This document shows, in pieces, positions 10,933-63,027 of a stretch of DNA of 64,000 nt (its first letter is position 1; each line of letters begins with the position of its first letter). The notes under the pieces were generated by a model that saw only the letters and a program-made list of their open reading frames with translations, was not told where the DNA came from and made no database searches. The position numbers and the translations under genes are program-made. Source of the stretch: Firmicutes bacterium HGW-Firmicutes-11 (GTDB taxonomy: Bacteria; Bacillota; Clostridia; Peptostreptococcales; Anaerovoracaceae); NCBI GenBank assembly GCA_002840285.1, contig PHAE01000005.1:1-64000 (forward strand), written 5' to 3'.

Positions 10933-11008
10933 GCCCAGATAGCTCAGTCGGTAGAGCAGTAGACTGAAAATCTACGTGTCCTTGGTTCAATTCCGAGTCT
11001 GGGCACCA
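10933..11008 (+). tRNA. tRNA-Phe (GAA)
   Basis: Acceptor GCCCAGA/TCTGGGC, discriminator A, encoded CCA, anticodon GAA at 10966-10968. Last gene of the cluster; a strong hairpin begins one base after the CCA. Confidence 0.96.
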
Positions 11009-11009
11009 A

Positions 11010-11047
11010 CGAACGACCCTTTCGCATTTATGTGAGAGGGTCGTTCG
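11010..11047 (+). terminator. Hairpin ending the tRNA cluster
   Basis: Perfect 11-bp stem CGAACGACCCT/AGGGTCGTTCG directly after tRNA-Phe. No clean T run follows. It also separates the tRNA operon from the aro promoter 20 bp downstream. Confidence 0.7.
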
Positions 11048-11067
11048 CCGTTGTCAGAAAATTCTTC

Positions 11068-11096
11068 TTGCTTTTGCCTGACTCCCATGGTATAAA
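11068..11096 (+). promoter_or_regulatory. Promoter of the aromatic biosynthesis operon
   Basis: TTGCTT (11068-11073), 17-bp spacer, TATAAA (11091-11096) with an extended TGG. It predicts a start near 11103, about 27 nt ahead of the leader-peptide ATG and 240 nt ahead of aroB. Confidence 0.75.
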
Positions 11097-11129
11097 TAAA
11101 AGAAGATTTTATGGAAAAGGACGATCGTT

Positions 11130-11246
11130 ATGAAATGTTATCACCAGCATGAATCAGGTTTTTTCAACTTTAACAACCGGAGCTATAATAATAGCTTCGG
11201 ATATTTGGGGTTTTTGAGATCGGACATGCCGGGTGAACATTGCTAA
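11130..11246 (+). CDS. Phe/Tyr-rich leader peptide of the aro operon (candidate attenuator peptide, 38 aa)
   Basis: ATG 11130 has AAGGA eight bases upstream and opens a 38-codon frame ending in TAA. Eight of 38 residues are aromatic: Phe at 11, 12, 14, 23, 28 and Tyr at 4, 19, 25 (core FFNFNNRSYNNSFGYLGF). It is placed between the operon promoter and an intrinsic terminator, in front of six genes that make phenylalanine. That is the layout of leader-peptide attenuation, where ribosome stalling on Phe or Tyr codons prevents termination. Codons 16-24 also form a 9-bp hairpin in the RNA (11177-11185 with 11192-11200). I could not identify a clear antiterminator pairing. A free small protein is the alternative. 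Confidence 0.7.
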   Translation: MKCYHQHESGFFNFNNRSYNNSFGYLGFLRSDMPGEHC

Positions 11247-11280
11247 CGATAGCGCTTTAAAGAAATAAAGTGTATTCGGA

Positions 11281-11310
11281 AAGAGGTTCGTCGCGGCGAA
11301 CCTCTTTTTT
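11281..11310 (+). terminator. Intrinsic terminator in the aro leader (attenuator)
   Basis: Perfect 10-bp stem AAGAGGTTCG/CGAACCTCTT with loop TCGCGG, running into TTTTTT. It lies 35 nt after the leader-peptide stop and 33 nt before aroB, so transcription must read through it to reach the operon. Confidence 0.9.
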
Positions 11311-11343
11311 ATTCACAGAAACACAGACGAGGAGATTTCGGGA

Positions 11344-12417
11344 ATGAAAACTTTGCAAGTGAACAGCATACACCGTTCCTATCCCATTCATGTGGGAGCC
11401 GGTCTGGTCGGCCGCACTGGAGAATTTCTTCGAAGAATGCGAAATGTCGGACAAGTCGCTGTGATCACCGATGAAACCGTAGCTGCGCTGTATAGGGCGA
11501 CTCTCGATGAAAGCTTGCAGCGAGAAGGTTTTTCCCCAACGTGGCTAACGATCGCGCCAGGGGAGGAAAGCAAAACAGTGGCGTCGTTTGAACGTCTTTG
11601 CGAAACGCTTGCTTCCAGTGGAATGCGACGGGACGGTCTCCTGATCGCTCTGGGCGGCGGTGTCACCGGCGACCTTGCCGGGTTTGTCGCAGCCAGTTAT
11701 ATGAGGGGAATGGATATCGTTCAGATACCGACAACTCTATTGGCCCAGGTCGATTCTTCCGTCGGCGGGAAAACAGGATTAAACATACCGCAAGGGAAAA
11801 ATCTGATTGGCGCCTTTTGGCAGCCGCAAATGGTCATTGCAGATCCCAACTTCCTCACAACATTGGACGATCGTCAGTTTGCCTGCGGTATGGCCGAAGT
11901 AGTAAAATACGGAGCGATTGCCTCGGCCTCGCTTTTCGAACGTTTGGATGGAATGGACCGGGAGACGGCGCAACAGGACATGGAAAATATCGTGTACCGG
12001 TGTTGTGGAATCAAAAAGAGCATCGTTGAAGAAGACGAAAGAGATACTGGCAGACGGATGCTTTTAAACTTTGGACACACTTTTGGCCACGCTATCGAAC
12101 AGGCTGGCGCATACCGGACACATACCCATGGCGAAGCCGTCGCCATCGGGATGGTGATGGCCGCAACGCTGGGTGAATCCCTTGGTATCACGATGCCCGG
12201 AACAGCAAAGCGAATATCGGACGTTCTTCGATCATTTTATCTTCCTGTGGAGTGTCCTTATCAAATCGACATCCTGGCGCCGTTGCTTCAAATCGATAAA
12301 AAAGCCGGAATAGGCGGGATCCGAGTCGTCTTGCTGGAAGAGATCGGAACAAGTCTGCTCCATACAGTAGAAACCGTTGAAATCATGAAACTATTTGATA
12401 AAGGGGGAGCGCTATGA
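11344..12417 (+). CDS. aroB: 3-dehydroquinate synthase (operon copy)
   Basis: This 357-aa protein converts DAHP to 3-dehydroquinate, the second shikimate step, using NAD and a divalent metal. Signatures: ALGGGVTGDLAGFVAASYMRG (NAD site, from about residue 102), PTTLLAQVDSSVGGKTGLN, the metal ligand region GMAEVVKYG and NFGHTFGHAIE. GAGGAG precedes the ATG. It is the first structural gene behind the leader-peptide attenuator and overlaps aroA by 4 bp (ATGA). A second, divergent aroB lies at 61933-63009 on the other strand. Confidence 0.97.
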   Translation: MKTLQVNSIHRSYPIHVGAGLVGRTGEFLRRMRNVGQVAVITDETVAALYRATLDESLQREGFSPTWLTIAPGEESKTVASFERLCETLASSGMRRDGLLIALGGGVTGDLAGFVAASYMRGMDIVQIPTTLLAQVDSSVGGKTGLNIPQGKNLIGAFWQPQMVIADPNFLTTLDDRQFACGMAEVVKYGAIASASLFERLDGMDRETAQQDMENIVYRCCGIKKSIVEEDERDTGRRMLLNFGHTFGHAIEQAGAYRTHTHGEAVAIGMVMAATLGESLGITMPGTAKRISDVLRSFYLPVECPYQIDILAPLLQIDKKAGIGGIRVVLLEEIGTSLLHTVETVEIMKLFDKGGAL

Positions 12418-13697
12418 GTTCCCGCTTAGAGATCCAACGTTGGCCGGCTGGTACGGTGACGCTTCCGCCTTCGAAAAGCATATCTCACAGAGCAATGATC
12501 TGCGCCGCGCTTTCAGAAGGAACAAGCAGACTGTCTGCCATCGATCTTCGAGGGGATGACGTAGCGGCAACCGCAGCGTGTTTGTCGACTCTTGGAACTT
12601 CCTTTAAGATATTGGACGGCATTCTGGAAATCCGGGGAGGGACCTCGATGCTGCGATCCCGGCTTCCCTATAGCGAACCTGTTCCCCTGGATTGCGGCGA
12701 GTCCGGTTCGACCCTTCGTTTCCTGATTCCTCTGTTGCTCCAACTTGATCGACCGGCAGTGATCGCTGGTCACGGAAAACTCATGACTCGTCCAATGGCT
12801 CCGTATTTGAAAGCGTTGGAGGAAAAAGGAGCCACATTTCACACAGAAGGAAACACCTTGTCGGTGCAGGGGCGTCTGGTGTCCGGCGAATACCACCTGC
12901 CAGGGAACATCAGTTCACAGTACCTCAGCGGACTGCTCTTGTCCTTGCCGCTGGCAGAAGGAGACAGCGAGATTCAGTTGACTACCCCTCTGGAATCCGG
13001 AGCGTATGTGGACATGACGATATCGGTCATGAGAGAGTTCGGCGTCATCGTGGAAGAGTATTCCGGTGGCAGGTACCGGATCCCAGGCAACCAAGTCTAT
13101 CAAGCGACGGACTATACAGTGGAAGCCGACTACTCGGCAGCTGCATTTTTCCTGGCTGCGGGAGCATTGGGATGCAACACGGGATGCCTTGGTCTTCGCA
13201 AGGATTCGATGCAGGGAGACAGGGCGATGACATCGATCATTGCAGCGTGTGGAGGAGAAGTCTTTTGGAGTGAAGAACTGGGATTGCAGGCAAAAGCAGA
13301 CACGATACGACCGATCACAGTAGATATAAGGGAATTTCCGGATCTGGCACCGCCGATCGCCGCACTTCTCTGCTTCGCGGACGGAGAAAGCCGAATAACG
13401 GGAGCCGCGAGACTCCGGATGAAAGAGAGCGATCGTCTGCACGCGTTGGCAACACAGCTGTCGGAGATCGGTGCAGACATCCGCGAAGAGGAAGACCAGT
13501 TGGTGATCCATGGAGTGAAGGAGCTTCACGGCGGGGTGGTCGATCCGCAAAACGATCATCGAATCGCCATGGCCGCCGCTGTCGCCTCGATCAAAAGCAA
13601 AGGCGCAGTAACGATCCTGGACCCGGATTGCGTCAAAAAATCGTATCCGGATTTTTGGAAAGACTTTTGCAGACAGAGAAGAGAGGAAACGAGATGA
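12414..13697 (+). CDS. aroA: 3-phosphoshikimate 1-carboxyvinyltransferase (EPSP synthase)
   Basis: This 427-aa enzyme joins PEP to shikimate-3-phosphate. The N-terminal PPSKSISHRAMI, the phosphate-binding DCGESGSTLRFLIPLL, and the C-terminal RMKESDRLHAL and NDHRIAMA signatures are all present. Its start codon overlaps the aroB stop and its stop overlaps the aroC start, both as ATGA, which points to translational coupling. Confidence 0.97.
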   Translation: MSSRLEIQRWPAGTVTLPPSKSISHRAMICAALSEGTSRLSAIDLRGDDVAATAACLSTLGTSFKILDGILEIRGGTSMLRSRLPYSEPVPLDCGESGSTLRFLIPLLLQLDRPAVIAGHGKLMTRPMAPYLKALEEKGATFHTEGNTLSVQGRLVSGEYHLPGNISSQYLSGLLLSLPLAEGDSEIQLTTPLESGAYVDMTISVMREFGVIVEEYSGGRYRIPGNQVYQATDYTVEADYSAAAFFLAAGALGCNTGCLGLRKDSMQGDRAMTSIIAACGGEVFWSEELGLQAKADTIRPITVDIREFPDLAPPIAALLCFADGESRITGAARLRMKESDRLHALATQLSEIGADIREEEDQLVIHGVKELHGGVVDPQNDHRIAMAAAVASIKSKGAVTILDPDCVKKSYPDFWKDFCRQRREETR

Positions 13698-14773
13698 GCA
13701 ACACATGGGGACAAATGTTGAAAGTCACGATTTTTGGAGAGTCCCACGGCCCCGGGATCGGCGTGGTGATTGACGGTCTTCCTCCGGGAGTGGAACCGAA
13801 CTTCCCTGAGATCTATAGACACATGTCACGTAGGGCGCCAGGGCAAAGCGAACTAACGACTCCAAGGAAGGAATCGGACGAACCAGAGATACTCAGCGGT
13901 TTGTTTCATGGGAAAACCACAGGAGCGCCGCTCTGCGCCCTGATCCGAAATCAGGACACACGGTCCTCCGACTATGATCCCGCGGTACCCAGACCCGGTT
14001 CAGCTGATTTTGTTGCTCAGATCAAATACAAGGGCTGTCAGGACTATCGTGGCGGAGGAACCTTCTCGGGACGAATGACGGCTCCCTTGACTTTTGCGGG
14101 AAGCATTGCGCGACAGATCCTCGCCGACCGGGGAATTTACATAGGGGCACATATCAAGCAAATCGAAGGAATCGAAGATTTAAGCTTTGAAATCGTAGAT
14201 GAGACATTGCTCGCTTCGCTGACACACGCTTTGTTTCCCGTACTCGACGACGAAGCCGGCAGAAAGATGTCCGATCGGATCCGACAGGCAAAGGAAGAAG
14301 AGGATTCCGTAGGCGGAATCATAGAATGTGTTGCCACAGGCATACCCGCCGGTGTGGGGTCGCCGTTTTTCGACTCGATAGAGAGCGCAGTGGCATCAAT
14401 GATGTTTTCCATCCCCGCGGTCAAGGGCATCGAATTTGGAGCAGGATTTTCTATCACAGCCATGCGCGGGAGCCAGGCAAACGACGAAATCATAACGGTT
14501 GGAGAACGGGTTCTTACAAGAACGAACAACAATGGCGGGATCAACGGAGGAATCAGCAACGGTATGCCGATTCTGTTCCGGGTCGCGGTGAAGCCCACGC
14601 CTTCCATTGGAAAAACACAATCTTCTATAGACATTCGATCTGGAGAAGAGAAAGAATTGAAGATCAAAGGACGCCATGATCCTTGTATCGTTCCGCGGGC
14701 AGTCGTCGTTGTGGAATCCGCCTTCGCCCTTTGTTTGCTGGATCGAATCCTGAGCAACGGAGAATGGAAATGA
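13694..14773 (+). CDS. aroC: Chorismate synthase
   Basis: This 359-aa FMN-dependent enzyme makes chorismate from EPSP. The start MSNTWGQMLKVTIFGESHGPGIG is the family N-terminus (GESHG), with AGAGGA six bases upstream; a longer frame upstream lies inside aroA. The FSGRMTA, GSQANDE, NNNGGINGGISNG and RHDPCIVPRA motifs follow. It overlaps aroA by 4 bp and the next gene by 4 bp. Confidence 0.97.
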   Translation: MSNTWGQMLKVTIFGESHGPGIGVVIDGLPPGVEPNFPEIYRHMSRRAPGQSELTTPRKESDEPEILSGLFHGKTTGAPLCALIRNQDTRSSDYDPAVPRPGSADFVAQIKYKGCQDYRGGGTFSGRMTAPLTFAGSIARQILADRGIYIGAHIKQIEGIEDLSFEIVDETLLASLTHALFPVLDDEAGRKMSDRIRQAKEEEDSVGGIIECVATGIPAGVGSPFFDSIESAVASMMFSIPAVKGIEFGAGFSITAMRGSQANDEIITVGERVLTRTNNNGGINGGISNGMPILFRVAVKPTPSIGKTQSSIDIRSGEEKELKIKGRHDPCIVPRAVVVVESAFALCLLDRILSNGEWK

Positions 14774-16121
14774 AGAACCTTATCCTGATCGGCTTGCCAG
14801 GCAGTGGCAAGACTACGCTAGGCAGAGAGCTTGCGTTTTCCACCGGCAGGCAGTTTATCGACTTGGATGATATCATCCAGCAGACGGATGGTCGTACGGT
14901 GGAAGAAGTGTTTCGTACCGAAGGAGAAGCGGGATTTCGAGATCGGGAAACCGCTGCGATTCGAGAACTGACTAACCAAAAGAGAGCAGTCATCGCCTGT
15001 GGGGGAGGAGTCGTCCTCAAACAGGAAAATATAAAAATGCTATCCTCCGGAGGTCTGATGTTATACCTTGATCGTCCGGTCGAGATGATCCTGGCAACCG
15101 TCGATTTGTCGGATCGGCCATTGCTTCGGGACGATCCCTGTCGACTCTTCCAACTTCAGAGAGAGAGGCGCCATCTGTACGAGGAGGCTGCGGATTTTGT
15201 CATTGGATGCATCAGTGAGAAGGAGGCCCTTGCGGAAGCGATCAGAATCAGCAAAATGGAGGAAACCGATCTTCGTCTGGCCGTCATTGGAGACCCGATT
15301 TCCCACAGTCGCTCTCCGGAGATCCATACGCCGATCCTAGAGGATTTCTACAACAGCGTTAGCTACTCCAGGCTTCATGTGAAGGCGGATCATCTACAGA
15401 CATTTCTTGCTGAAGCCAAAAGCTTGGGATTGCAAGGATTCAATGTGACGATGCCTCACAAGCAGACGATCGTTTCGCTGCTTGATCGTGTGGACCCGGA
15501 TGCCGCAGCCGTCGGTGCCGTCAACACGGTAGTGCGAACAGACGGCGGGTGGGAAGGATCCAGCACGGATGGAACAGGGTTCGCGACCGCATTGCTGGAG
15601 ATGGGTCGGACATTGACCGATAGTAAAGTCACGATCATAGGCACCGGCGGAGTTGCAGCCACCTTGGCGTTGAGAGCCGCCTGGGACAAAGCGCTGGAAG
15701 TTCGGATCCTGGGTCGAGATATTGAAAAGGCGAACCGGCTTGCTGCTCTGACAAATGAGATCACCGGATCGATGGTCGCTGTTTCCGGCAGATTCGATCC
15801 ACATTCTTCGATCAAGCAATCTGCCGATATCATGATCAACGCGACACCGATGGGCATGACCGGAACCGGGAGCGATTTTCCGGGATTTGACTTTTTGAAC
15901 GGGTTGAAAGCGGGAACCCTACTCTGCGATCTCGTCTATGAACCAATAAATACTAGGTTGTTAGCAGAAGGCAGACGCAGAGGTCTCGAAACCATGGGCG
16001 GGTTGTCGATGCTTGTCTATCAAGCGCTGGAGGCAGACAGGAGATTCACCGGAACCGGCATCGCAAGAAGCAAAGCCAGTCGAAGAGCAATGGAATACCA
16101 AAAGCAGAAAGGAATGGAAAT

Positions 16122-16125
<4 letters not shown>
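14770..16125 (+). CDS. Fused shikimate kinase / shikimate dehydrogenase
   Basis: A single 451-aa chain combines two pathway steps. The first 165 or so residues are shikimate kinase (P-loop [32 protein letters not shown]). From about residue 174 it is shikimate dehydrogenase AroE ([26 protein letters not shown] with the catalytic Lys, [18 protein letters not shown](P) loop [22 protein letters not shown]). ATG 14770 has GGAG seven bases upstream and overlaps the aroC stop by 4 bp; ATG 14764 is too close to it. The kinase-dehydrogenase order is inverted relative to the chemistry (AroE acts before AroK). Confidence 0.93.
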
Positions 16126-17144
<1,019 letters not shown>

Positions 17145-17148
17145 GAGT

Positions 17149-18276
17149 ATGAACAAAAACGAAAGCATGAAACATCTGCGAGATGACCTGGATCGGATCG
17201 ACCGGGACCTGCTGTCCCTGTTTCAGGAGAGAATGGAAAAGATCGATCAGGTGGCAGAAATCAAACGACGGGACAACATTGCGATCACCGACGAGGCTAG
17301 AGAAAAAGAAATCGTAGAGCGGGCATTGGGGTTGACAAATCCGGACATCAGCGGAGAAGTCACGACCTACGTCCGAACGATTCTTGGCCTATCCAAATTC
17401 AGACAAAGAAAACTCCTCTTTGATCTTTCGGAGGATCCACTCCTCCCACCGCCGACCGAACCGGTCACACGGGATCAGGCTGTCGCATTCCAGGGAGTTG
17501 CCGGCGCATGGGGAGAACTGGCAGCTTTGAACCTCTATCCGGATGCGGAAAAAACCGGTTTGGAAAGCTTCGAGGAAGTATTTGCAGCCGTGAAAGAAAA
17601 CCGGGTCCATTATGGGATCTTGCCGATCGAAAATTCCAGGACAGGAGCCATCGGAGAAGTTTATGACCTTCTGAGGAAATATGGATGTTACATCGTCGGC
17701 CAGACTTGGGTCCAGGCAAAGCACTGCTTGATGGCACTGCCCGGCACTAAAATCGAAGACATCAGAGAAGTCCATTCTCATCCGGAAGGATTTCGCCAAT
17801 GCAGTCAGTTTCTGAGAAAACGGTCCTGGGACCTGACCGCAAGCCGAAATACTGCGGTAGCCGCAAAAATGGTATCAGAAAAGCAAGAAAAGAGACTTGC
17901 TGCGATCGGATCCGCAAGAGCAGCGGAACTATATGGGCTTACTGTGATCACCCATGACATCATGGATGATCCGGGCAATAAAACAAGGTTCATCGCAATT
18001 GCATCCCGGCCGGAATACGACGAGACATGCGATACAGTGAGTCTAACGTTCCGAACAGCCAATCGTGCAGGCGCACTCTGCGAAGTCTTGTTTCACTTCA
18101 TGGCGGCAGGGATCAATCTGACCCGAATCGAGTCCCGTCCCATGCTCGGAGGGAAGTTTTGCTTCTTTGCTGATGTGGATGGAAACGTTCTGGAAGAGTT
18201 CGTTGCCAGAGGGATCCGTCATGCGGCGGCAGCAGGGAGCTACATGGAGGTTCTTGGCTGTTTCCGTTCAATCTAG
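17149..18276 (+). CDS. pheA: Bifunctional chorismate mutase / prephenate dehydratase (P-protein)
   Basis: This 375-aa protein takes chorismate to phenylpyruvate, committing the operon to phenylalanine. Residues 5-95 are an AroQ chorismate mutase (LDRIDRDLLSLFQERM), 105-285 the dehydratase (GVAGAWGE, PIENSRTGAIGEVYDLL, GNKTRF), and the last 80 an ACT domain with GALC and ESRP, the Phe-binding motifs, so end-product inhibition is expected. ATG 17149 has GAGAGGA eight bases upstream. No tyrA and no dehydroquinase gene are in the operon. Confidence 0.97.
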   Translation: MNKNESMKHLRDDLDRIDRDLLSLFQERMEKIDQVAEIKRRDNIAITDEAREKEIVERALGLTNPDISGEVTTYVRTILGLSKFRQRKLLFDLSEDPLLPPPTEPVTRDQAVAFQGVAGAWGELAALNLYPDAEKTGLESFEEVFAAVKENRVHYGILPIENSRTGAIGEVYDLLRKYGCYIVGQTWVQAKHCLMALPGTKIEDIREVHSHPEGFRQCSQFLRKRSWDLTASRNTAVAAKMVSEKQEKRLAAIGSARAAELYGLTVITHDIMDDPGNKTRFIAIASRPEYDETCDTVSLTFRTANRAGALCEVLFHFMAAGINLTRIESRPMLGGKFCFFADVDGNVLEEFVARGIRHAAAAGSYMEVLGCFRSI

Positions 18277-61932: not shown

Positions 61933-63009
61933 TCACTGGTGTGGATCGATGAATTTTGCATAATCTGCCTTGTCGATTTGATGGAGGAAGCCCTTGCCTA
62001 TCTTTTCAAGCAATACCAGGTTCAATTTATCGCCACGACGTTTCTTGTCTCGCTTGACCGCTTCTACCACCTTTTCGATATCCGTGCCTTCCGGCAGGGA
62101 ATGGGGAAGTCCATAGGAGCCGGTGAGTTCCTTGATCAGTTTCGCGGTGTTGGGCGCTGTGAACCCGTAGCGTTCTCCGGCTAGGGCGGTGGCGTACATC
62201 CCGATGGAAACTGCTTGTCCGTGTGTGTAGGTTCCTTCTGGAAAATAGTCTTCGATGCAATGTCCGAAGGTATGACCGAAATTTAAAAGCATGGCAATAC
62301 CCTCATCTTTGCAGTCGAGTTCTATGATCTGCTTTTTGATGAGACAACAACGGAAAATGATGGTTTCGATCCCGCCGCCATCGCTTTTCATAGCCCTGTC
62401 AATGAGATCGGAAAATAGATCCGGATCAAAAACACATCCGTATTTGATGACCTCCGCCATTCCATCTTCCAGGATCTTGTCCGGCAGCGTTCTTACGAAC
62501 CGGGGGTCGATAAATACCTCTCGCGGTTGATAGAAGGTTCCTGCCATGTTTTTGCCTTCCGGGAGGTTCGCGCCGTTTTTCCCGCCGATGCTGGCATCTA
62601 CCATTGCCATCAATGTCGTGGGAACCTGGACCAGGTTTACACCACGCTGGTACGTTGCAGCAGCAAAACCTGCGATGTCCCCCACAACGCCTCCGCCGAA
62701 AGCGATGACCACATCATCACGAGTCAGCTGAAAATCAAGTAGTTGACTATATAACTTGGGAAGGGTTTCAAAGGATTTGCTGGCCTCTCCCGGTGGAAAC
62801 GATATGAGCCGCCACTGGATGCCAGCGTCGTTCATTTGCTTTGTCAGGTGTTCCTCGTAAATTGACTTGACTGTGTCGTCGGTGATCACAGCTACCTTTT
62901 TTCCAGGAAAAAGTTCGCGAACCATCGAACCGAAATGAAAAAAAAGACCGGTTTCGGTAGTGACAGTATATCGCTCTGCATTTGTGTTGATGGTTAGTGT
63001 CTGACGCAT
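61933..63009 (-). CDS. aroB: Second 3-dehydroquinate synthase (orphan aroB paralogue)
   Basis: This 358-aa protein has the full DHQS core: AFGGGVVGDIAGFAAATYQRG, QVPTTLMAMVDASIGGKNGANLPEGKNMAG, GMAEVIKYG and NFGHTFGHCIE. It differs from the operon copy (11344-12417) in that the SVGGKTG motif reads SIGGKNG. ATG 63009 has GAGGTGA upstream; the GTG at 63018 lies inside that site. It stands alone under its own promoter. It could be a redundant DHQS or a related sugar-phosphate cyclase; the metal and NAD residues look intact. Confidence 0.9.
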   Translation of the reverse strand: MRQTLTINTNAERYTVTTETGLFFHFGSMVRELFPGKKVAVITDDTVKSIYEEHLTKQMNDAGIQWRLISFPPGEASKSFETLPKLYSQLLDFQLTRDDVVIAFGGGVVGDIAGFAAATYQRGVNLVQVPTTLMAMVDASIGGKNGANLPEGKNMAGTFYQPREVFIDPRFVRTLPDKILEDGMAEVIKYGCVFDPDLFSDLIDRAMKSDGGGIETIIFRCCLIKKQIIELDCKDEGIAMLLNFGHTFGHCIEDYFPEGTYTHGQAVSIGMYATALAGERYGFTAPNTAKLIKELTGSYGLPHSLPEGTDIEKVVEAVKRDKKRRGDKLNLVLLEKIGKGFLHQIDKADYAKFIDPHQ

Positions 63010-63027
63010 AAATATCACCTCAGATAA

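Follow-up and report, generated by a model that had tools for sequence, protein, structure and literature searches.

A probable Phe/Tyr leader peptide attenuator of the aro–pheA operon in a clostridial genome, and its homologues in related bacteria

In the enterobacterial systems pheL/pheA and pheM/pheST, a Phe-rich leader ORF is followed by a terminator before the gene, and ribosome position selects between alternative pairings of the leader RNA. The decision in classical attenuators is kinetic. Control of amino acid genes in Clostridia is usually credited to T-boxes (RF00230), which sense tRNA charging and act by antitermination; here the tRNA binds the RNA directly, without an ORF. The nearest published item to the locus described below, compared with it by description only, is uORFC-13-1 (PMC8632094). 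This uORF, which includes one or more Phe codons, lies in a promoter–terminator interval 5' of aroF (DAHP synthase), and attenuation was proposed for it on 24 examples, found in Acholeplasma and unassigned environmental sequences only. In bacilli, a His leader peptide was described before hisZ/hisS*, for which regular leader-peptide attenuation was proposed (PMC2965389).

The window, the whole stretch of 64,000 nt that was analysed, contains a leader region of about 240 nt between an array of 16 tRNA genes and aroB (Table 1). As the sequence-only reading had stated, a promoter is followed by an ORF of 38 codons with a Shine-Dalgarno site, five Phe codons (11, 12, 14, 23 and 28) and three Tyr codons (4, 19 and 25), and by a terminator ahead of aroB. 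The promoter has a weak −35 box and an extended −10 element, with TG at 11088-11089 upstream of TATAAA, and was absent from the list of a simple consensus promoter scan. Similar elements (TGnTATAA or TTGACA..TATAAT) were present 35–60 nt 5' of the leader ORF in several relatives. The final gene of the tRNA array, directly 5' of the leader, is tRNA-Phe (10933-11008, + strand), which also neighbours the leader at the loci L114, where the array order is identical, and L119. Searches at the locus with Rfam, at gathering and relaxed thresholds, returned tRNAs and chance matches only, and the leader peptides had no match above cut-off in Pfam or NCBIfam.

Table 1. Features of the leader region and of the downstream operon (positions in the window).
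Feature	Position	Strand	Basis and remarks
Promoter, extended −10	11068-11096	+	TTGCTT 11068-11073, 17-nt spacer, TATAAA 11091-11096; sequence
Shine-Dalgarno site	11115-11121	+	AAAAGGA, 8 nt ahead of ATG 11130; sequence
Long hairpin over entire ORF (protector, '1:2')	11124-11250	+	−47 kcal/mol; folding
Leader peptide ORF	11130-11246	+	38 codons, 38 aa, MKCYHQHESGFFNFNNRSYNNSFGYLGFLRSDMPGEHC; unannotated; sequence and profile match
In-frame hairpin	11177-11200	+	CCGGAGCUAU/AUAGCUUCGG, codons 16-24; conserved, compensatory changes
Antiterminator 5' arm	11228-11238	+	GCCGGGUGAAC; end of leader ORF; folding
Small spacer hairpin	11252-11273	+	gap between ORF and terminator; folding
Intrinsic terminator	11280-11310	+	stem ~11280-11291/11296-11307, U's to 11310; folding
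Antiterminator 3' arm	11286-11297	+	GUUCGUCgCGGC = GUUCGUC-g-CGGC; overlaps terminator 5' stem and loop; folding
aroB	11344-12417	+	NCBIfam TIGR01357
aroA (EPSP synthase), presumed	12414-13697	+	ORF, homologues in relatives
aroC (chorismate synthase), presumed	13694-14773	+	ORF, homologues in relatives
aroK-aroE fusion, presumed	14770-16125	+	ORF
DAHP synthase (aroF type)	16122-17144	+	NF006421, TIGR01361
pheA (chorismate mutase/prephenate dehydratase)	17122-18276	+	top matches are prephenate dehydratase models, under their curated cut-offs

The downstream operon has six genes and ends in pheA, as had been proposed, but the gene order had to be corrected to aroB, aroA, aroC, fused aroK–aroE, DAHP synthase and pheA. 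Three of these ORFs were named from sequence knowledge and are taken to be aroA, aroC and aroK–aroE; in the last, the kinase (N-terminal) and the dehydrogenase (C-terminal) appear fused in a single ORF. A second aroB (61933-63018, − strand) with 42% identity to the first and a TIGR01357 match above cut-off lies away from the operon and adjoins a clpB-like gene.

Homologous Phe/Tyr-rich ORFs were found 5' of aroB or DAHP synthase in members of the family and in other Clostridia, and the search among relatives that the sequence-only reading had suggested gave such ORFs ahead of aro genes across the class and phylum, with a core peptide FYFSAGYF or SFYFSFGYF. A peptide profile (A1) was made from 14 leaders, with the window and several relatives among its rows, so that the match in the genome of origin (E 2.4e-10) arises partly by construction. 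The genus of this genome contains this species only. Within the family, 19 of 297 genomes matched at E 0.01, only about 11–12 of them solidly. At E 0.001, matches were obtained in 54 of 394 genomes of the order and in 46 of 391 genomes of the class, most of which are not rows of the profile. Sixty loci with E up to 0.001 were read, and at least 56 have an aromatic-pathway gene (DAHP synthase, aroB, aroE, aroK, aroQ, pheA or tyrA) directly downstream on the same strand. The exceptions are two contig ends (L139 and L148), L145, where an unidentified gene separates the leader from DAHP synthase, and L147 (G392:C6), where the gene after the leader resembles sodium/solute symporters and may encode an aromatic transporter. 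A wider profile (A4) gave nine matches in other families of the phylum, all of which precede DAHP synthase and are accompanied by terminators. Rather than a terminator kept beside a lost ORF or lost aromatic codons, the relatives thus held homologous leaders, an outcome that favours the leader claim.

The leader was also found at two Monoglobus loci (L008 and L012). Two genomes at the order level, G439 and G441, have three leaders each, which therefore constitute a regulon in those genomes; in G439, G441 and G469 (loci L135, L138 and L143) the two to three leaders per genome stand ahead of aroE, pheA and other genes. At one locus (L013:896-976) a Clostridiales-2 RNA (RF02937) follows the leader ORF and precedes DAHP synthase. 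The weak A1 matches in the family (L126-L132, E > 1e-3) were dropped; they have no adjoining aro genes and serve as a rough null.

The leader RNA of the window folds at −73.7 kcal/mol, compared with −44.6 kcal/mol for dinucleotide shuffles (z −7.3, 0/200). The hairpin that had been reported within the frame is present, but it is only the tip of a larger structure, the long hairpin spanning the ORF. Conservation of this tip was assessed on 33 distinct core segments, picked by register, with leaders of other spacing excluded. In its arms 82% of the cells are paired, against 21–56% when the arms are slid; double changes occur at five of nine pairs, and the covariation score was reached by none of 500 shuffles. 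The core serines of the leader peptides are almost always encoded by AGC, with C found repeatedly at the third codon position before them. The pairing of the arms, the double changes and the AGC serines indicate that the in-frame hairpin is selected at the RNA level, which explains much of the peptide conservation. It perhaps acts as an RNA polymerase pause, synchronising ribosome and polymerase.

No simple antiterminator had been seen in the sequence-only reading. Folding of the leader for alternative structures, a check which it had proposed, gave one that is exclusive with the terminator, formed by the end of the leader ORF and the 5' part of the terminator, and the stall scan and arm swap described below point to the same pairing. 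For the stall scan, the RNA was folded with the antiterminator 3' arm made and the terminator 3' arm not yet made. In the ribosome-free RNA the antiterminator had a probability of 0.00. This rose to 0.83 when the A-site stood anywhere in codons 3-29 and fell to about zero from approximately codon 32 up to the stop codon; a refined pair set gave 0, 0.98 and 0 for the ribosome-free, stalled and stop states. The permissive stretch includes all eight aromatic codons; since a stall anywhere in it would suffice, it is the codon content that would set the amino acid specificity. When the complete terminator is present, folding of the leader RNA always favours it at equilibrium, and the switch therefore has to be kinetic. 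Taken by itself, the antiterminator of the window is no better than shuffles (358/2000), so that the claim of an antiterminator rests on the leader family; in the swap matrix, where its arm was shortened, it does not rank high either.

Across the family, terminators were located about 15–110 nt past the stop codon in almost all leaders, except for L148 (none), L155 (the call is an artefact) and L180 (a weak call). The antiterminator duplexes had a mean z of −1.8 against dinucleotide shuffles, with 23 of 58 leaders at p < 0.05, these being related and hence not independent sequences. Swapping arms between leaders gave −7.9 kcal/mol compared with −11.7 kcal/mol for a leader's own arms (z −10.6, or −4.8 with one leader per family). 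Among 57 leaders from the class, 54 gave a more probable antiterminator with the ribosome stalled at the aromatic codons than with it at the stop codon; the zero of the stop state follows from the position of the antiterminator arm near the stop codon and is a property of the design, not an independent test. Ribosome-free RNA was predicted to be default-off in 28 of the 57 leaders and default-on, i.e. reading through, in 23.

The locus is very probably a ribosome-mediated transcription attenuator of the aro–pheA operon. Its ORF and Shine-Dalgarno site follow a promoter, translation is predicted, and homologous ORFs occur in many genomes. The Phe and Tyr codons match the end products of the operon (aro genes and pheA), an intrinsic terminator lies ahead of the first gene, and in the computation the antiterminator excludes the terminator in a way set by ribosome position. 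The proposal that a Phe/Tyr leader peptide attenuates this operon had been made in the sequence-only reading, and the homologous leaders and terminators preceding aromatic genes support it well. From these parts, their conservation and their mutually exclusive pairings, we infer that the leader ORF is translated, that ribosomes stall on it and that the locus responds to Phe and Tyr. A ribosome would start the ORF while RNA polymerase transcribes the leader. A shortage of charged tRNA-Phe or tRNA-Tyr would halt it on an aromatic codon (one of eight, 4-28); the stalled ribosome would open the long hairpin and free the antiterminator 5' arm (11228-11238) to pair with the 3' arm (11286-11297) before the 3' arm of the terminator exists, and transcription would enter aroB. 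With both tRNAs charged, the ribosome would reach the end of the ORF and mask the 5' arm, and the terminator would form. In the absence of a ribosome the long hairpin would hide this arm, making termination the default.

The core peptide is conserved between families well beyond aromatic richness, as might be expected of an arrest peptide, in which the nascent FYFSAGYF/SFYFSFGYF chain would stall the ribosome on free Phe or Tyr and not through a shortage of charged tRNA. TnaC works in this way with Trp. Much of the conservation, however, is at the RNA level, as seen in the AGC serines, the recurrent third-position C and the paired hairpin changes. Moreover, Phe and Tyr interchange freely in the loop, and the window has Asn-Asn for Tyr-Phe. 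An arrest peptide appears improbable.

A conserved hairpin and a very stable leader fold (z −7.3) would also suit a riboswitch or a protein-binding element in which the ORF is incidental. This is very improbable, as the RNA beyond the core varies but the frame, start codon, Shine-Dalgarno site and aromatic codons are retained, the antiterminator arm sits at the 3' end of the ORF, where a terminating ribosome can cover it, and no Rfam family matched. Finally, with the array of 16 tRNA genes ending just 5' of the leader, the arrangement could be due to chance, the terminator belonging to the array and the ORF being untranslated. But tRNA-Phe has a hairpin of its own at about 11010-11048, 5' of the promoter, and the layout recurs in distant genomes, some of them without an adjacent tRNA array; a chance arrangement is hardly credible and is effectively refuted by the homologues.

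For the preferred reading, ribosome-mediated attenuation, the sequence-only reading had suggested that the mechanism may be new for this group. As an antiterminator was found it need not be, and it is of a known kind; the leader family and its wide spread in Clostridia apparently are new. In the open-access literature neither an earlier description of the family, which may exist elsewhere, nor the leader peptide strings were found. More tentatively, and with the odds somewhat against it, the leaders may be a distinct family of aromatic attenuators that extends across the phylum, having a conserved hairpin in the aromatic codons, an antiterminator arm in the end of the ORF and default-on and default-off lineages, and replacing T-boxes for the common aromatic pathway. 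A widespread leader-peptide switch ahead of DAHP synthase and other aromatic genes would explain the control of aromatic amino acid synthesis in many gut and soil Clostridia. The missing annotation of leader gene and attenuator would be added to many genomes, and natural default-on and default-off variants of one attenuator would be available for comparison.

Among the described systems, uORFC-13-1 shares with the window a leader ORF between promoter and terminator 5' of an aromatic gene; its host is Acholeplasma, and two Acholeplasmatales aro loci that were inspected (L057 and L083) held no such leader. The His leader (PMC2965389) is likewise an attenuator of the leader-peptide type in bacteria whose usual regulators are T-boxes, but differs in amino acid, genes and class. 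Unlike a T-box, the leader of the window has an ORF and no RF00230 match, and no T-box was found at the loci of 40 relatives that were scanned. Elsewhere in the genome of origin there are seven T-box matches (loci L191-L197), three above cut-off, which shows that T-box detection works and that both sensing systems coexist. The leader resembles pheL/pheA and pheM/pheST in its ORF with aromatic codons, its terminator and the alternative pairing set by the ribosome, while none of the curated models (sequence or covariance) for known leaders such as enterobacterial pheL matched it above cut-off. Compared with pheL and pheM, the leader encodes a longer peptide in which Phe and Tyr are intermingled and scattered, the clostridial family has a conserved in-frame hairpin in the region of the aromatic codons, the operon runs from aroB to pheA or starts with DAHP synthase, and the hosts are Clostridia and relatives.
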